Shown: one piece after another, positions 1 to 7,050 of the stretch | Layout of the letters: each line of letters starts with the position of its first letter | Position numbering within the stretch: position 1 is the stretch's first letter | Source of the DNA: Armatimonadaceae bacterium | Lineage (GTDB): Bacteria > Armatimonadota > Armatimonadia > Armatimonadales > Armatimonadaceae | Direction of reading: 5' to 3' | Assembly: GCA_030446525.1 (NCBI GenBank) | Contig: JAUJNC010000209.1 | Span: 1 to 7,527, forward strand | Length of the DNA: 7,527 nt | Program-made: the position numbers and the translations under genes | Notes under the pieces: generated by a model | Told to the model about the DNA's origin: nothing | Databases searched by the model: none | The model's input: the letters and a program-made list of their open reading frames with translations, nothing else

Positions 1-26
1 CGCGGCCATCTACAACATGGAATGCA

Positions 27-107
27 ATGACTGAACTTATGCAAGAGGTCTATTGCCTGGGCTGCACCGCCGGGGCCGGCTCCTCCTGCGGCGGCGCGGT
101 GGCGTAA
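27..107 (+). CDS. Tiny Cys-containing ORF (26 aa), doubtful
   Basis: This short frame encodes a 26-residue peptide whose second half is rich in Cys, Gly and Ala (YCLGC, then SSCGG, ending GAVA). Its ATG lies inside the last codons of another frame that enters from the left edge and ends at TGA 32-34 (…IYNMECND), so the two overlap as ATGACTGA, a pattern seen in translationally coupled genes. The frame is also open leftwards to the window edge, so it may instead be the C-terminus of a longer protein. No Shine-Dalgarno sequence or recognisable family is visible. The hairpin at 117-146 follows directly and could terminate its transcript. It may be a real small gene, a gene tail, or chance. Confidence 0.2.
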   Translation: MTELMQEVYCLGCTAGAGSSCGGAVA

Positions 108-116
108 AGGCGTCCT

Positions 117-168: not shown

Positions 169-822
169 CTACACCTGCTTCAGCAACTCAGCCTTTTTTG
201 CGTCAAACTCCTCCTGAGTGATCGCCCCGGCGCGAAGCAATTCGTGCAGGCCGGCGATCTTTTCCACGGCGTCGCTCACCCTGCCGGGTTCCTTCTCGGA
301 AGACGCGGCCGCGCCGTTTTTCCCGGCGGCGGGCGTTTCGTCCGCGGCCGGCGGCGCGGTCTTCTGCCCCTTCAGCTTGATGTGCAGCGTTTTGGCGAAC
401 GAATCGCGCAGCGAGGCGATGCTGGGCTCGGTCCCGCGGCGCACCTGCTTGAAATAGTCCTTGAGCGTGTCCCCCGCCGCCCAGGCCACCGCGCCGACGA
501 CGGGCGCCTGCAGCAGAAACGACGCCAGCAGACCCCCGCCGGGGATGAAACGCACCAGGCGCGACCCGGCATAGGCCGCCCCCAGGACGGAGGCCGTGCC
601 CGTGGCGATGGCCCAGCCTATCTGCCGTGACCGCGCCGGCGACACGATCACCTGATACACCCCGGCCAGCTCCGTCGCCATCTTCGCGAACGTGGCCGTC
701 ACCCCCATCACATCCAGCGGCGGCGGCAGGATATTCCAGGCCCCCGACACCACCGCGTAGCGCGCCACCACGAAGTTCGCCTTGCGGTCCAGCTCGTCCC
801 AGTCCGGTTCCATCCAGTCCAT
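169..822 (-). CDS. DUF697-like membrane-associated protein with C-terminal SHOCT domain
   Basis: This encodes a 217-aa protein. Residues about 18-148 look like the DUF697 (YcjF-type) fold: an N-terminal amphipathic helix leading to ILPPPLDVMGVTATFAKMATELA, then Gly/Ala-rich hydrophobic stretches at about 68-88 and 96-117 that could be membrane helices. A low-complexity Ala/Pro/Glu linker (about 151-183) leads to a SHOCT domain at 185-217, with the typical pattern of a short helix (EKIAGLHELLRAGAIT) followed by QEEFDAKKAELL. SHOCT domains are short C-terminal helical modules, often proposed to mediate oligomerisation. DUF697 proteins are often linked to GTPases, but none is seen here. The ATG at 820-822 has no clear Shine-Dalgarno; another ATG lies three codons in. 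The gene diverges from the DprE-like operon. The biochemical role is unknown. Confidence 0.8.
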   Translation of the reverse strand: MDWMEPDWDELDRKANFVVARYAVVSGAWNILPPPLDVMGVTATFAKMATELAGVYQVIVSPARSRQIGWAIATGTASVLGAAYAGSRLVRFIPGGGLLASFLLQAPVVGAVAWAAGDTLKDYFKQVRRGTEPSIASLRDSFAKTLHIKLKGQKTAPPAADETPAAGKNGAAASSEKEPGRVSDAVEKIAGLHELLRAGAITQEEFDAKKAELLKQV

Positions 823-992: not shown

Positions 993-1757
993 ATGGCGGT
1001 ACCCTGGGAACGGGCGATCATTGTGGGGGCGTCTTCGGGCATGGGGGCCTCGCTCGCGCGGCAGCTGGCCGAGCAGGGGTGCCAGGTGGCCCTGGTGGCG
1101 CGGCGCGAGGCCGAGCTGCGCCGCCTGGCCGACGAGATCAACGGCCGGGCCGCGCCCGGACGGCCTGAGGGGTTGGCGCGTACGTACGTCCACGACGTGA
1201 CCTGTTACGATCAGGTGCCCGGCCTGTTCCAGCAGATCTGCCGCGACCTGGGCGGCCTGGATCTGATCATCTACGCCGCCGGCGTGATGCCGCGCCTGCT
1301 CCCCGACGAGTACACGTGGGAGAAGGACCGCGTGACCATCGAGGTGAACGTGCTGGGCGCGATCGCCTGGCTCAACCAGGCCGCGCAGCGGTTCCAGGCG
1401 GCGCGGGGCGGGACGCTGGTGGGCCTCTCGTCGGTCGCCGGCGACCGGGGGCGGCGCGGGTTCCCCGCCTACAGCGCCTCCAAGGCCGCGCTCGCCACCT
1501 ACCTGGAGGGCCTGCGCAACCGGATCGGGCGCTTCGGCGTCGCCGTGGTGACGGTCAAGCCGGGCCCCGTGGACACGCCCTTGACCCGGGGGCTGGACAG
1601 GCTGCCCCTCCTGATCGGGCCGGACGAGGCCGCGCGGCAGATCCTGGCGGCCGCCCGCCGGCGCGCCCACACCGCCTATGTCCCGGCCACGTGGCGCCCC
1701 ATCCTGTTTGTCATCCGCCACATCCCGTCCTTTCTTTTCCAGAAGATGAACGTATGA
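993..1757 (+). CDS. DprE2-like short-chain dehydrogenase/reductase
   Basis: This is a 254-aa NAD(P)-dependent short-chain dehydrogenase. The nucleotide-binding GxxxGxG is G12-A-S-S-G-M-G18; N119 lies in VNVLG; the catalytic Ser is probably S147 (LSSVAG); and YxxxK is Y160-S-A-S-K164, 13 residues after that serine. KPGPVDTP at 189-196 is the usual post-catalytic loop. Beyond the family motifs, it shares with mycobacterial DprE2 (recalled, not aligned by program) the same 254-aa length, the SSVAG-[ED]R-x-RR stretch, and a C-terminal tail RHIP-x-x-[IL]F-x-K. DprE2 reduces the 2-keto intermediate made by DprE1, completing epimerisation of decaprenylphosphoryl-ribose to -arabinose. The next gene is DprE1-like and begins in an ATGA overlap, which strengthens the call. 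The true lipid-sugar substrate here is unknown. It is the first gene of a three-gene operon. Confidence 0.9.
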   Translation: MAVPWERAIIVGASSGMGASLARQLAEQGCQVALVARREAELRRLADEINGRAAPGRPEGLARTYVHDVTCYDQVPGLFQQICRDLGGLDLIIYAAGVMPRLLPDEYTWEKDRVTIEVNVLGAIAWLNQAAQRFQAARGGTLVGLSSVAGDRGRRGFPAYSASKAALATYLEGLRNRIGRFGVAVVTVKPGPVDTPLTRGLDRLPLLIGPDEAARQILAAARRRAHTAYVPATWRPILFVIRHIPSFLFQKMNV

Positions 1758-3277
1758 GCGTCGAACCCCTGAGCGCCCCGGATCTGGCTTCCCTTCCTGA
1801 CCCCGGCGGACCTCGCTGCCCGTCGGCCTTACCGCCCGCCCTGCCGGCGGAGCGCCTGGAGCCGGTGCGCGCGTGGGGCATGGCCTCGCAGGTGCTCAGC
1901 TATATGTATCGGCCGAGCACGGCCGAGGGCATCCACGACGCGTTCCGGCTGGCGCGCGCGCGGGGACTGAAGATCGGCCTGCGCGGCGCGGGCCGCTCCT
2001 ACGGCGACGCGTCGCTGAGCGCGGAGAACGTGTGCCTGGATCTGAGCCGGATGAACCGCATCCTCGGATGGGACCCGCAGGCGGGTGTCATCCGGGTGGA
2101 GCCGGGCGTCACCATCGGGCAGGTCTGGCAGTACGCCGTCGAGGACGGGTGGTGGCCGTACGTCGTCCCGGGCACCATGTTCCCCACCCTGGGCGGCTGC
2201 GCGGCCATGAACATCCACGGCAAGAACAACTGGAAGGTCGGCCCGATCGGCGACCACATCCTGGACTTCGAGCTGCTGCTCCCGGACGGCACGGTCGTCC
2301 GTTGCAGCCGCGAGCAGAACGCCGACCTTTTCCACGCGGCTATCGGCGGCTTCGGGATGCTCGGCTGCTTCCTGAGCCTGACCCTCAGGCTGAAAAAGGT
2401 GCACTCCGGCCTGCTCCGCGTGGAGCCGATCTCGGCCGGGAGCTTGGCGGAGATGATCCGGATCTTTGAAGAGCGGCTGGACCACGCGGATTACCTGGTG
2501 GGCTGGGTGGACTGCTTCCCCGGGGGATCACAGACGGGGCGCGGGCTGGTGCATCAGGCCGACCACCTCGCGCCCGGCGAGGACCCGCGGCCCGCGCAGA
2601 CGCTGCGCGTCGCGAACCAGGAGCTGCCGGACACCCTGTTCGGTCTGGTCCCCAAGTCGCTCATGTGGCGGTTCATGAAGCCGTTCGTGAACGACCCCGG
2701 CATGCGCCTGGTCAACGCCGCGAAGTACCACCTGAGCCGCCGCCAGGACGGCCAAAGGCACTACCAATCGCACGCCGGCTTCGCGTTCCTGCTGGACTAC
2801 GTGCCGGACTGGAAGCGTGCTTACGAGCCGGGCGGCCTGATACAGTACCAGAGCTTCGTCCCCGCCGCGCAGGCCGAGGCGGTTTTCCGCGAGCAGCTCG
2901 CCCTGTGCCAGCGGCGCGGCGTTGTCCCCTACCTGGGCGTCTTCAAACGCCACCGCCCCGACCCCTTCCTGATGACCCACGCCGTCGACGGCTACTCCCT
3001 GGCGCTCGACTTCAAGGTCACCCGCCAGAACCGGGCGCAGGTCTGGGCGGTGGCCGCCGAGATGGACACGCTCGTCCTGGAGGCCGGGGGGCGCTTCTAC
3101 TTCGCCAAAGACAGCACCCTCCACCCGGCCCGGCTAGCCCGTTACATGGCCGAAGAGCGCGTGCGCCGGTTCCTCGCCCTCAAGCGCGAATGCGACCCCG
3201 AAGGGATCCTCCAGACCGAGCTCTACCGGCGCATCTTCCAGGGCGGGTCCGAGCTGCCGCAAAGCCCGGTACAATGA
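1754..3277 (+). CDS. DprE1-like FAD-dependent oxidoreductase
   Basis: This encodes 507 aa. The frame is open upstream, but the start is set by ATG 1754, which overlaps the SDR stop (ATGA). The N-terminal half is a PCMH-type FAD-binding domain: RGAGRSYGD at 77-85, PGVTIGQVW at 117-125, and GGCAAMNIHGKN at 147-158. The C-terminal half resembles the D-arabinono-lactone oxidase-type cap, with IQYQSFVP at 363-370, GVFKRH at 395-400, RFYFAKDS at 447-454, and a DPEGILQTELYRR tail. These blocks match mycobacterial DprE1 (461 aa), which oxidises C2 of decaprenylphosphoryl-ribose. Equivalents of its active-site Gln334, Lys367 and Lys418 appear to be Q364, K398 and K452. The position of Cys387, the covalent benzothiazinone target, appears to be A417. 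An N-terminal extension of about 40 residues is Pro-rich and of unknown role. Other FAD-linked lipid or sugar oxidases remain possible. Confidence 0.9.
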   Translation: MSVEPLSAPDLASLPDPGGPRCPSALPPALPAERLEPVRAWGMASQVLSYMYRPSTAEGIHDAFRLARARGLKIGLRGAGRSYGDASLSAENVCLDLSRMNRILGWDPQAGVIRVEPGVTIGQVWQYAVEDGWWPYVVPGTMFPTLGGCAAMNIHGKNNWKVGPIGDHILDFELLLPDGTVVRCSREQNADLFHAAIGGFGMLGCFLSLTLRLKKVHSGLLRVEPISAGSLAEMIRIFEERLDHADYLVGWVDCFPGGSQTGRGLVHQADHLAPGEDPRPAQTLRVANQELPDTLFGLVPKSLMWRFMKPFVNDPGMRLVNAAKYHLSRRQDGQRHYQSHAGFAFLLDYVPDWKRAYEPGGLIQYQSFVPAAQAEAVFREQLALCQRRGVVPYLGVFKRHRPDPFLMTHAVDGYSLALDFKVTRQNRAQVWAVAAEMDTLVLEAGGRFYFAKDSTLHPARLARYMAEERVRRFLALKRECDPEGILQTELYRRIFQGGSELPQSPVQ

Positions 3278-3645
3278 CCTCAATGCATGGCAGGCACTGG
3301 GTGCTCTGGGACGGTGGGTGAGGCCTGTGACGGCGCGTCGCCGCCTGGGTCAGGCGGCAAGATAAACGTGACCGTTTTCAAACGCTCGCCTACCAGGAAG
3401 CGCCGTCGCCGCCGATGACGCCCGAGTTGTACGCCGCCTGCGCGCGCGCCGTCCACGTGGTCACGGCCGACGGGGGCGTGCTGCGGGGGGGGCGCGCGTG
3501 CCTGTTCGTCCTGGAGCAGCTCGGGTGGGGGTGGAAGGCGCGCCTGCTGACGCTGCCCCCCTTCTTCTGGGCCGTCGAGCTCGGTTACCGCCTCGTCGCC
3601 GCCAACCGGACCTTCTTCTCGCACTTCCTGTTTCGCAACGGGTGA
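3274..3645 (+). CDS. DUF393/DCC-family thiol-disulfide oxidoreductase, predicted double-selenocysteine (UxxU) selenoprotein
   Basis: Reading from ATG 3274, which overlaps the oxidase stop as ATGA, gives 123 aa with two in-frame TGA codons at 3319-3321 and 3328-3330 (codons 16 and 19). The product reads HWVLWDGG-U-GL-U-RRVAAWVRRQDKRDRF. DUF393 proteins begin with a strand such as VLYDGxCxxC, and the family name DCC comes from DxxCxxC; here both Cys positions are exactly TGA. After the motif the family pattern continues: ADGGVLRGGRACLFVLEQLG (about 70-89), a hydrophobic helix, and LGYRLVAANRTFFS near the C-terminus. Length is normal for the family. Neighbouring genes stop at TGA, so TGA is not simply Trp here. 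A SECIS-like hairpin lies at 3340-3358. The predicted role is redox chemistry on a thiol or selenylsulfide partner, coupled to the flavoenzyme operon; the substrate is unknown. The alternative is a pseudogene with two coincident mutations. A 76-aa version from ATG 3415 would lack the active site. Confidence 0.85.
3340..3358 (+). promoter_or_regulatory. Candidate bacterial SECIS hairpin
   Basis: GCCGCCTG (3340-3347) pairs perfectly with CAGGCGGC (3351-3358) around GGT. If the closing G-C pair opens, the apex is GGGTC. The stem starts 9 bases after the second TGA, and the GGTC of the apex is 17 bases after it. In E. coli fdhF the SelB-bound loop GGUC is, from memory, 18 bases after the UGA, so spacing and loop sequence nearly coincide. 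The first TGA is 9 bases further upstream and may share the element. Caution: the hairpin overlaps codons for AAWVRR, a segment often conserved in this family, so part of the pairing could come from coding constraint. Use of the otherwise rare AGG for Arg is needed for the pairing. Confidence 0.65.
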
Positions 3646-4389: not shown

Positions 4390-5082
4390 TCAACCTTTCC
4401 GGCGCCGCCGGGCGTGACTGAGGAAACCGAACATGCCGATGCTCGCCAGCGCGAGGGTGCCCGGCTCGGGGACGGCGAACTCGGTCCCGGTCAGCCGGAT
4501 GGTGTACGTGCCGGTCTCGACGGCGACAAATCCGGTGTAGGCGGTGATCGGCGACGCGCCGCCAAGGCCGGTCGGCCCGACAACAGCCCGTTCCGGAGAA
4601 ACCAGGGGAAAATAAGGTTTAGCATCGTCGGGGGGCCACTAGAAGGAAAGTAATTGAAGGGGTGACCAGGAGATAGTACAGCCCGGCCGTCGTCGGGGTG
4701 AGCGGGTGAAAGGCGGGGGAGGGTCGATCGGAAACTGGCGCCGCCGACCTCGTCGTCGTTGGCGTACACGCCGCGCCCGGTCGCGTCGAAGAGGAACAAT
4801 GGGTGTCGGGAAAAGGGTGCCCGGCTGGCCCACGGTCGTCGCCGAGAACGTCCCGCCGCCAGTGAGATAGATCTGGTACATGTCCGGATCTATCCCGCCG
4901 GGGATGTTCGGCGGGTGATCGTCCCCGTGATCGTGGTCGGTGCTCTCCCCGATCCCGGCGGTGATCTGCGCGATGGCCGGGAGGCTGCCCGCATCGCCTT
5001 CTTCCGTCCACGTCTGTGCGCTCCCCGTGGGCGAGCGCCAGCACCGTGACCATCGCCAACCCTGCAGCAAAGAACTTTTCAC
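4390..5082 (-). pseudogene. PEP-CTERM protein of DVUA0089-like type, broken by about six frameshifts
   Basis: Joining frames gives a coherent exported protein of about 230 aa. It starts with GTG 5080-5082 and a good AAAGGAG site, then a signal peptide split across frames (MKSSLLQ, then LAMVTVLALAHG, then SAQTW). Next come TWTEEGDAGSLP, DMYQIYLTGGGTFSATTVG, FLFDATGRGVYANDDEVGG, PLTPTTAGLYYLLVTP, FNYFPSSGP and GPTGLGGASPITAYTGF, then TGTYTIRLTG. This order matches DVUA0089-family secreted proteins. The C-terminus is VPEPGTLALASIGMFGF plus SHARRRRKG: a PEP motif, hydrophobic helix and basic end, i.e. a PEP-CTERM sorting signal for exosortase. Frame changes fall near 5060, 5023, 4800, 4717, 4660 and 4633, mostly in G/C runs, and an in-frame TAG lies at 4639-4641. 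A decayed gene is the likely reading; homopolymer sequencing error is the alternative. Confidence 0.85.
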
Positions 5083-5088
5083 TTGTCT

Positions 5089-5163: not shown

Positions 5164-7050
5164 TTAGGGGCTTCCCAGGGAAGCCAGCAGATCGAAATCA
5201 CCGGCGGCGTTGAACAGCCACGCGTCACGACTGAGTCGGAAGTCACCGCCGGGGATGCGCGCCTGGCCCGTTACAGCCGGGGCGGGGTCCGAGAACGTGA
5301 GATCGGAGATCAGCAAAGCCCCGCGCGGCCGCCGGTTGAACGCGAACCGGATCGAGCGGACGTCCGTCAGGTCGACCCCGGCGAAGGCCGTGAGCGGGAT
5401 GCGGACCATGTGCAACAACAGCTTGGGCAGGGGGCCGATCTTGCCGGGCGGGTAGGACAGCGCCCCGGACCAGCGGCTCACCGGGGTGGTGGCGGCCCTG
5501 CCCGCGCCGTCGGTAAGGATCACGGAAAGGTCCTGATCCTGCGCCACCGGATTGCGGGGGACGTCCACGAAATTGACGCCGGCCCGGAACTGGAGCGCGT
5601 AGTAACCGCTGACGTCGCGGGCGTCCGACGGCAGAACGTTCTGGTAACTCGCGCCGGCATCGTCCCAGACGAGCTGAAGCTGGCTCAGGCCGCGCCGCGC
5701 CGTGGCGCGCGCGCTGACGCTGGTATGGGGCTCTCTGGCATCGGGCTGGTTGGGCAGACAGAAGCGCGGCTGTGGGGGCTCGCCGCCGCACAGGTCGTAC
5801 GGGGCGAGCCCGCTCTGCAGCACGGGGCCGCCCAGCGTGTTGACGGACAGGTTCGTCTCGTCCAGCAGCCGGTTCACGTCGCGCCGGGAAGGCGAGTCAT
5901 CGGGCGCGTGGTAGGCGAAGAGGATGTTGTCCGTGGCGGCCGAGGGCGGCGGGGCCACATCGCCCTTCAGGAGGGGCAGGAACTGGGTTTCGCCGCCCAG
6001 GTACGCCCGGAAGAACGCCGCGATGTACACCGTGGCGGCGCCGCGCTGCTGCGCGTCGGTCAGCCGCCCGTTGCCCGGGACGGTCGGGCCGGCGAAGGGG
6101 TCGAGCGCCCCGTACGGTACGAACTGGACCCAGTCATCGAACGTCCCCGCCGGGAAGAGCCCGGGCGTCCAGACGGTGTTGAAGAAGGCATGGTTGCCGC
6201 CCATCAGCGTGACGATGTGCTTGGGGGCGGGATCGCCCGGCACGTTGTAGCGCGCGTCGTCGAAGTAATGCACCCCCTGCAGGTCGCTGACGTCGCCGTC
6301 ACAATAGGACAGCAGCACCGCCAGCGCCGCGTTGTTGGTGACGAACCGCTGGAAGTTCACCGGGGCCACCGGCAAAAGCGCCTTGGTGGTGTAGGGCGCG
6401 CCCAGGCTCTGGTTCAAAACGAAGTGCCGGACGATGCCCTCGCCGCCGCGCGAGTGGCCCATGGTCCCGATGTTGCCCAGGTCCAGCTTGCCCACGAACC
6501 GGTCGCCGAAGGGCTCGCCGCCTTCGGTGTTGAAGGTGTTCCACAGGTCCAGGTGGCGCTGGATCAGTTCTGCGCGCGCGCGCATGCCAAAATCGAACAG
6601 TTCATTGTCGCCGGCGTTGATCCCATTGGCGCTAATGGAGATCACGATGTAGCCGTGGCTGGCCAGAACCTCGGCGACGTAATCATACCCCCGATAGCTG
6701 GGGATGGGAAGTCTTCCCGGATCGGGCGGCCACTGGAGGAAGACCCGGTTGGTGGCGGGGTCATAGGCGGTCGCGTGGCGGCCGTGCAGAAAAACGATCA
6801 CCGGGAAGGGCCCCTCCGAAAGATCGGTCGGGGCATGTACGGAGCCGGTCAGCTCGACCGGCGCGGGGGGCGTCAGGGGAACGAAGTCGGTGGGCGTGAA
6901 CGCCGTGTCGCCCAGAGTGTAGTCCTGGCGCGTGACCGCGTACGGTCCGGGCGCGGTGGGATCGGCCTGCGCCCAGAGGCGGGGGGCGCCCCCGAAAAGC
7001 AGGCACAGGATCAGGCAAACGGCGTAACAGACGCGCAAGTTCCTTTTCAT
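5164..7050 (-). CDS. Secreted alpha/beta hydrolase with C-terminal beta-sandwich-like domain
   Basis: This encodes 628 aa with a clear signal peptide: MKRN, a hydrophobic core to about residue 21, and a probable cleavage after AQA at 27-29. Residues about 66-350 form an alpha/beta hydrolase of the dienelactone-hydrolase or chlorophyllase/PAF-acetylhydrolase-like kind. PVIVFLHGRH (83-92) is the oxyanion strand; GHSRGG (198-203) is the nucleophile elbow with S200; D251 or D253 in SYCDGDVSD is the likely acid; and H287 in MGGNHAFFN is the likely base. Residues about 440-590 are strand-rich and end with VRIPLTAFAGVDLTDVRSIRF and GALLISDLTF, resembling the carbohydrate-binding-like sandwich appended to many secreted enzymes. 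The substrate is probably an ester but is unknown. Start ATG 7048-7050 has AAAGGA 5 bases upstream. It follows the partial gene at 7087 by 36 bases, so the two are probably co-transcribed. Confidence 0.9.
   Translation of the reverse strand: MKRNLRVCYAVCLILCLLFGGAPRLWAQADPTAPGPYAVTRQDYTLGDTAFTPTDFVPLTPPAPVELTGSVHAPTDLSEGPFPVIVFLHGRHATAYDPATNRVFLQWPPDPGRLPIPSYRGYDYVAEVLASHGYIVISISANGINAGDNELFDFGMRARAELIQRHLDLWNTFNTEGGEPFGDRFVGKLDLGNIGTMGHSRGGEGIVRHFVLNQSLGAPYTTKALLPVAPVNFQRFVTNNAALAVLLSYCDGDVSDLQGVHYFDDARYNVPGDPAPKHIVTLMGGNHAFFNTVWTPGLFPAGTFDDWVQFVPYGALDPFAGPTVPGNGRLTDAQQRGAATVYIAAFFRAYLGGETQFLPLLKGDVAPPPSAATDNILFAYHAPDDSPSRRDVNRLLDETNLSVNTLGGPVLQSGLAPYDLCGGEPPQPRFCLPNQPDAREPHTSVSARATARRGLSQLQLVWDDAGASYQNVLPSDARDVSGYYALQFRAGVNFVDVPRNPVAQDQDLSVILTDGAGRAATTPVSRWSGALSYPPGKIGPLPKLLLHMVRIPLTAFAGVDLTDVRSIRFAFNRRPRGALLISDLTFSDPAPAVTGQARIPGGDFRLSRDAWLFNAAGDFDLLASLGSP

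Follow-up and report, generated by a model that had tools for sequence, protein, structure and literature searches.

The gene and its two in-frame UGA codons

Does a gene in which both cysteine codons of its DxxCxxC motif read TGA encode a protein with two selenocysteines (Sec), or has it been damaged? The question is raised by a small gene in a stretch of 7,527 nt from an Armatimonadaceae bacterium (contig JAUJNC010000209.1; this whole stretch is called the window), which the initial annotation had read as encoding a double-Sec (UxxU) oxidoreductase. That reading was supported by the recurrence of the TGA pair in 25 of 98 other genes, by a hairpin and by sel genes in the genomes of relatives, and we put at about 0.83 the probability that the gene encodes a thioredoxin-like DCC/DUF393 selenoprotein of the UxxU form, with two Sec residues sharing one SECIS. 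The features of the window used below are as follows.

169..822, minus strand: gene for a DUF697/SHOCT protein (Pfam; locus comparison)
993..1757, plus strand: short-chain dehydrogenase (SDR) gene, DprE2-like among others (PF00106)
1754..3277, plus strand: FAD-linked DprE1-like oxidase gene (PF01565), directly upstream of the DCC gene, stop TGA at 3275-3277
3274..3645, plus strand: DCC/DUF393 thiol-disulfide oxidoreductase gene, UxxU form (translation, PF04134, alignment of relatives); start ATG 3274 or ATG 3283, stop TGA at 3643-3645
3319..3321, plus strand: UGA-1, first motif Cys position, residue 16 counted from ATG 3274 (translation, alignment, codon survey)
3328..3330, plus strand: UGA-2, second motif Cys position, residue 19 counted from ATG 3274 (translation, alignment, codon survey)
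3340..3358, plus strand: SECIS-like hairpin, 3340-3347 pairing with 3351-3358, loop GGU at 3348-3350

Translation of 3274-3642 with TGA read as Sec (U) gave 123 residues (120 from ATG 3283), MTSMHGRHWVLWDGG-U-GL-U-RRVAAWVRR..., bearing out an intact DCC/DUF393 frame with two internal TGAs: the only in-frame TGAs in 3274-3645 are UGA-1, UGA-2 and the terminal codon, and 104 codons are open after UGA-2. With C put for Sec, the protein matched PF04134 at E 3.4e-16 (60.9 bits, cut-off 27.8) over residues 10-113 and positions 1-108 of the 113 in the profile; at a threshold of E 0.001 no other Pfam family matched, the PF00578 (AhpC-TSA/redoxin) domain being among those absent. The NCBIfam models gave no match at E 0.001, a PDB sequence-profile search gave no match at E up to 1, and structure comparison of a predicted model, in which UxxU sits between strand 1 and helix 1, gave weak matches only.

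Of 319 candidates, 303 were homologues at E 0.001 or better, the best 120 being listed. In an alignment of 28 rows, 26 relatives were in register with the window protein and 60-73% identical to it, a range that excludes the window gene itself and its own protein-database copy, a 76-aa piece from Met48 (P0030). Both UGAs fall exactly on the two Cys columns of the family, as had been claimed; DxxCxxC thus aligns with U in place of each C, and is present only if Sec is counted as Cys. Two random in-frame stops would land there about once in 7,140 by chance, in agreement with the earlier view that such a coincidence is unlikely. The start proposed before, at the ATG overlapping the oxidase stop, lies in the correct frame, but ATG 3283 (120 aa) appears from the alignment to be at least as likely as ATG 3274 (123 aa), because most relatives begin a few residues ahead of HW.

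TGA also terminates the adjacent SDR and oxidase genes as well as the DCC gene, and is therefore not a codon reassigned throughout. A tRNA search of the window found none, and an Rfam search of it at E up to 1 returned just a mir-150 match under the gathering score.

Motif codons in relatives

We read the motif codons in 98 further genes and found TGA/TGA in 25, TGC/TGA in five, TGA/TGC in one and Cys/Cys in 67, so that the set of 99 genes with the window comprises 26 UxxU, five CxxU (L055, L072, L094, L098 and L101), one UxxC (L071) and 67 CxxC genes. This set was obtained from 120 matches (119 loci and the window) by removing 20 second copies from the same genome and L074, in which the motif end is missing; L120, which is the gene of L009 again, is outside it. 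The C/U and U/C homologues that the initial annotation had suggested looking for therefore exist, and UGA-1 is present in 26 of the 31 genes having UGA-2. Decay downstream of the TGAs, also looked for, was seen solely in L071 (genome G102), which keeps the hairpin and in which the C-terminal part continues in another frame.

The scan of a genome collection had yielded 40 loci, with TGA at both positions in 12 and Cys at both in 28. The 12 TGA/TGA loci carry the labels Armatimonadaceae, Deltaproteobacteria, Chloroflexi/Chloroflexota, Myxococcota/Myxococcales/Polyangium, Actinomycetota and Brocadia, although these are MAGs, any one of whose labels may be mistaken. Searching whole genomes with the alignment gave matches in 59 of 291 genomes of the phylum of G001 (source of L001, Armatimonadaceae), with TGA within the match in six; in 12 of 251 for that of G009 (Chloroflexota), with TGA in one; in three of 198 for that of G002, with TGA in one; and in 31 of 377 for that of G010 (Myxococcales), with TGA in 18. 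For the phylum of G001, codon-level reading covered 30 loci and four fetched stretches out of the 59 matching genomes, and a partial match in G1062 was left out of the count. Among viral contigs, 158 pattern matches included no relative.

In a tree of 99 rows and 108 columns, from which the motif and hairpin columns had been removed, the UGA and Cys forms were interleaved, the Cys group requiring 21 changes, at least five of them forced by starred branches; none of 500 shuffles was as low as 21. Three CxxU genes (L094, L098 and L101) grouped with one UxxU gene, L102 (100/97). Bootstrap values had not settled and 42 of the 96 inner branches were open, a resolution too poor to demonstrate that the Sec form arose once. 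The hairpin occupies one fixed place in scattered lineages, which suggests either one origin of the Sec form followed by repeated Cys replacement, or transfer.

A SECIS-like hairpin downstream of the UGA pair

The hairpin in the window has an 8-bp stem and a 3-nt loop, with a predicted energy of -16.3 kcal/mol, and its loop lies 17 nt after UGA-2 and 26 nt after UGA-1. It agrees for both UGAs with the bSECIS model given in PMC13188914, which asks for 3-9 nt in the apical loop, 4-16 bp in the upper stem, a G within the first two positions of the loop, a distance of 16-37 nt between UGA and loop, and an MFE of -7.5 or lower. Shuffle z-scores for short windows round the hairpin were modest (-0.65 to -2.87).

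Across the family, 4-8 closing pairs were counted at the fixed place for 31 of the 32 UGA genes (the window included; L055 has one), versus 0-3 for all 67 Cys genes, none of which forms the hairpin. Loops in the UGA genes were GGU (26), GGC (two), GAU (two) and GAC (one), with GCU in L055. In a set of 13 genes, the paired share of cells is 91.3%, and four of the eight pairs show changes on both sides; this share was reached by none of 500 shuffles and the covariation score by one of 500, and slid versions of the hairpin paired at 15-44%. The share is 91.1% in 31 genes (all but L055), a value reached by none of 2000 shuffles. A covariance model built from the 13 genes recovered 18 of the 19 UGA genes that it had not seen, at 23-53 bits, and gave L055 12.8 bits, with no other match above 14.5 bits in 100 sources; the model contains the UGA-2 column, so these scores are partly not independent of the codon.

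Of the genes with Arg at the corresponding codon of the hairpin, all 31 UGA genes use AGG or AGA, versus one of 27 Cys genes, and Trp together with the AGG/AGA Arg codon is kept in 31 of 32 UGA genes and free in Cys genes. The exception to the pairing pattern, L055 (1528-1845, plus strand, in G245), is a CxxU DCC gene without a hairpin at the usual place, in a genome with selA, selB and selC; it may have a different SECIS, or represent a recent loss or an error.

Selenocysteine genes in the genomes of relatives

Besides that of the window, 31 genomes have a UGA gene, and at least one of selA, selB and selC was found in 30 of them. The tRNA-Sec gene selC (RF01852) was found in 29 (not in G007 and G105), selA was over the cut-off in 29 (not in G003 and G105) and selB in 26 (not in G002, G003, G004, G103 and G105). 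In G105, a 1.7-Mb assembly with a CxxU gene that has the hairpin, none of the three was found, with stricter filters for selC.

In the first scan, selC was also found in 25 of 28 genomes with the Cys form. It was present in 148 of the 291 genomes of the G001 phylum, Armatimonadota, and there its link with UGA genes (five of six versus 143 of 285 others) was not significant (p 0.21), so the presence of sel genes was rejected as a discriminator within that phylum. Since Cys-form genomes mostly have selC and the Armatimonadota link is at p 0.21, the sel genes allow the Sec reading but do not discriminate.

Neighboring genes

The SDR and oxidase genes overlap (993-3277, plus strand) and resemble a DprE2/DprE1-like pair outside the actinobacteria. 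The oxidase scored 260 bits against NF053785, below the cut-off of 500, and NCBIfam matches of the SDR were all below cut-off among the 25 listed. Among the 120 oxidase matches listed, five carry organism names: Armatimonadaceae, Chthonomonadales, Chthonomonadaceae and Armatimonadetes, all Armatimonadota, and one Candidatus Eisenbacteria. We considered an SDR, DprE1-like oxidase and DCC redox operon and rejected it, as neither neighbor adjoins DCC in the 40 genome loci; at an E cut-off of 1e-8, the SDR gave weak matches 3-4 kb from DCC in three loci (L006, L023 and L024), and the oxidase a weak one at about 3 kb in L028. Apart from DCC and overlapping frames, no neighbor family was common to more than two UGA loci by a crude longest-ORF call, which may miss genes. 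In L001, an Armatimonadaceae MAG, a protein 72% identical to the DUF697/SHOCT protein of the window is encoded about 1 kb upstream of the UxxU gene. Together with the named oxidase relatives, it makes Armatimonadota the likely source of the window.

Elsewhere in the window, a PEP-CTERM-type gene (4396-5088, minus strand) extends over three frames and ends in AVPEPGTLALASIGMFGFLSHARRRRKG, which we take to be a PEP-CTERM-type motif; it is possibly a decayed gene, or split by base errors in the contig. A 628-aa hydrolase-like protein is encoded at 5164-7050 (minus strand), whose match to PETase is sub-threshold (20.5 bits against a cut-off of 28), and a short Cys/Gly-rich C-terminus, ...YCLGCTAGAGSSCGGAVA, with stop TAA, occupies 1-108 (plus strand) at the contig edge.

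How the two UGAs may be read

The gene would encode a small thioredoxin-like oxidoreductase with selenocysteine in place of its two catalytic cysteines (DxxUxxU). In the course of translation, SelB bound to the single in-frame hairpin would bring Sec-tRNA to UGA-1 first, at 26 nt before the loop, and to UGA-2 next, at 17 nt before it. The product would probably alternate between diselenol and diselenide, reducing or exchanging disulfides or reducing oxidized substrates; we infer this chemistry, as we would any substrate or cellular place. For the family as a whole, we lean towards a model in which one SECIS hairpin recodes two same-frame UGAs nine bases apart, with Sec/Sec being the commonest selenium form, maybe ancestral, and repeatedly converted to Cys/Cys. 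If this model is true, the rare hairpin-bearing genes with a single UGA (CxxU or UxxC) would stand as natural intermediates, showing that either UGA can be served alone, from 17 or 26 nt.

The bacterial SECIS element of Escherichia coli fdhF has a spacing of about 18 nt from its UGA. The 17 nt of UGA-2 is close to this value, five of the six one-sided forms are CxxU and the sole UxxC gene is frame-broken downstream, all of which would fit a selenoprotein whose hairpin serves mainly UGA-2, with UGA-1 termination-prone, poorly decoded or needing another signal and the full-length double-Sec protein scarce. We regard this as unlikely, since a UGA-1 that merely terminated would hardly have been kept alongside UGA-2 in most genes that have the latter, and both spacings lie inside the 16-37 nt range given in PMC13188914.

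Less probable still is that a suppressor tRNA reads UGA as Cys, or as some other residue than Sec. A tRNA-Cys with anticodon UCA is known in a few bacteria, and the homologues carry Cys at these positions, but tRNA-Sec and selA are each found in 29, and selB in 26, of the 31 UGA-gene genomes, and the hairpin matches a SelB-type SECIS by the model in PMC13188914. We give the least credence to a pseudogene or sequencing error, in which two Cys codons would have been mutated or misread to TGA, leaving a dead protein or the 76-aa piece from Met48. Such damage would agree with the 76-aa database copy and with the nearby PEP-CTERM-like gene split over three frames, base errors in the contig being possible; against it, the same TGA pair recurs in 25 other genes, the frame is open for 104 codons after UGA-2, and the covarying hairpin is found only together with the UGAs.

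Relation to known families and implications

The selenoprotein thus favored resembles the DCC1-like thiol-disulfide oxidoreductases (DUF393; PF04134; YuxK) in its full-length profile match, its DxxCxxC frame and its predicted arrangement of strand, motif and helix, and differs in having UGA at both motif Cys codons and a SECIS-like hairpin. SelL is a UxxU selenoprotein. With it, and with the PF00578 Prx-like, NF041115 and TIGR02605 proteins, the window protein shares two Sec residues within a UxxU redox motif, whereas its domain is PF04134 and its gene set spans CC, CU, UC and UU. Table 1 of PMC13188914, a 2026 review, gives the PF00578 Prx-like thiol:disulfide oxidoreductase ('UxxC, UxxU'), metal-binding NF041115 and the FmdB family TIGR02605 as UxxU selenoproteins, and among its 119 families or subfamilies contains no DCC, DUF393 or PF04134. 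Compared with bacterial SECIS elements (the bSECIS model; E. coli fdhF), the hairpin is alike in being in-frame soon after a UGA at 16-37 nt with a G-rich apical loop; here, one hairpin is within range of two UGAs with starts nine bases apart.

The initial annotation knew of no DCC member with Sec at both sites, and none came to light in that table or in the literature searched. No DCC selenoprotein appears in the accessible portions of PMC9312934, PMC2398784 and PMC12013277, and a search joining selenoprotein or selenocysteine with DUF393, COG3011 or DCC names, to which most subscription papers were outside, found nothing. This looks like a real selenoprotein family, apparently unlisted in the reviews as far as their accessible parts go. 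Three of the 120 homologues listed (P0044, P0065 and P0119), of 102-104 aa, begin with M[AS][AV]WVRR directly after the motif and, judging by their sequences, are probably further UGA-containing genes shortened by gene callers. Because gene callers shorten such genes, as also with P0030, more of them are probably misannotated.

If the proposed reading is true, the catalogue of selenoproteins would gain a family that is unusual in having Sec at both active-site cysteines. Its Cys/Cys, Cys/Sec, Sec/Cys and Sec/Sec members would form a natural series bearing on why selenium is kept, on whether one SECIS decodes two UGAs, and on how a SECIS within the coding region constrains the protein, as in the held Trp and the AGG/AGA Arg codon.
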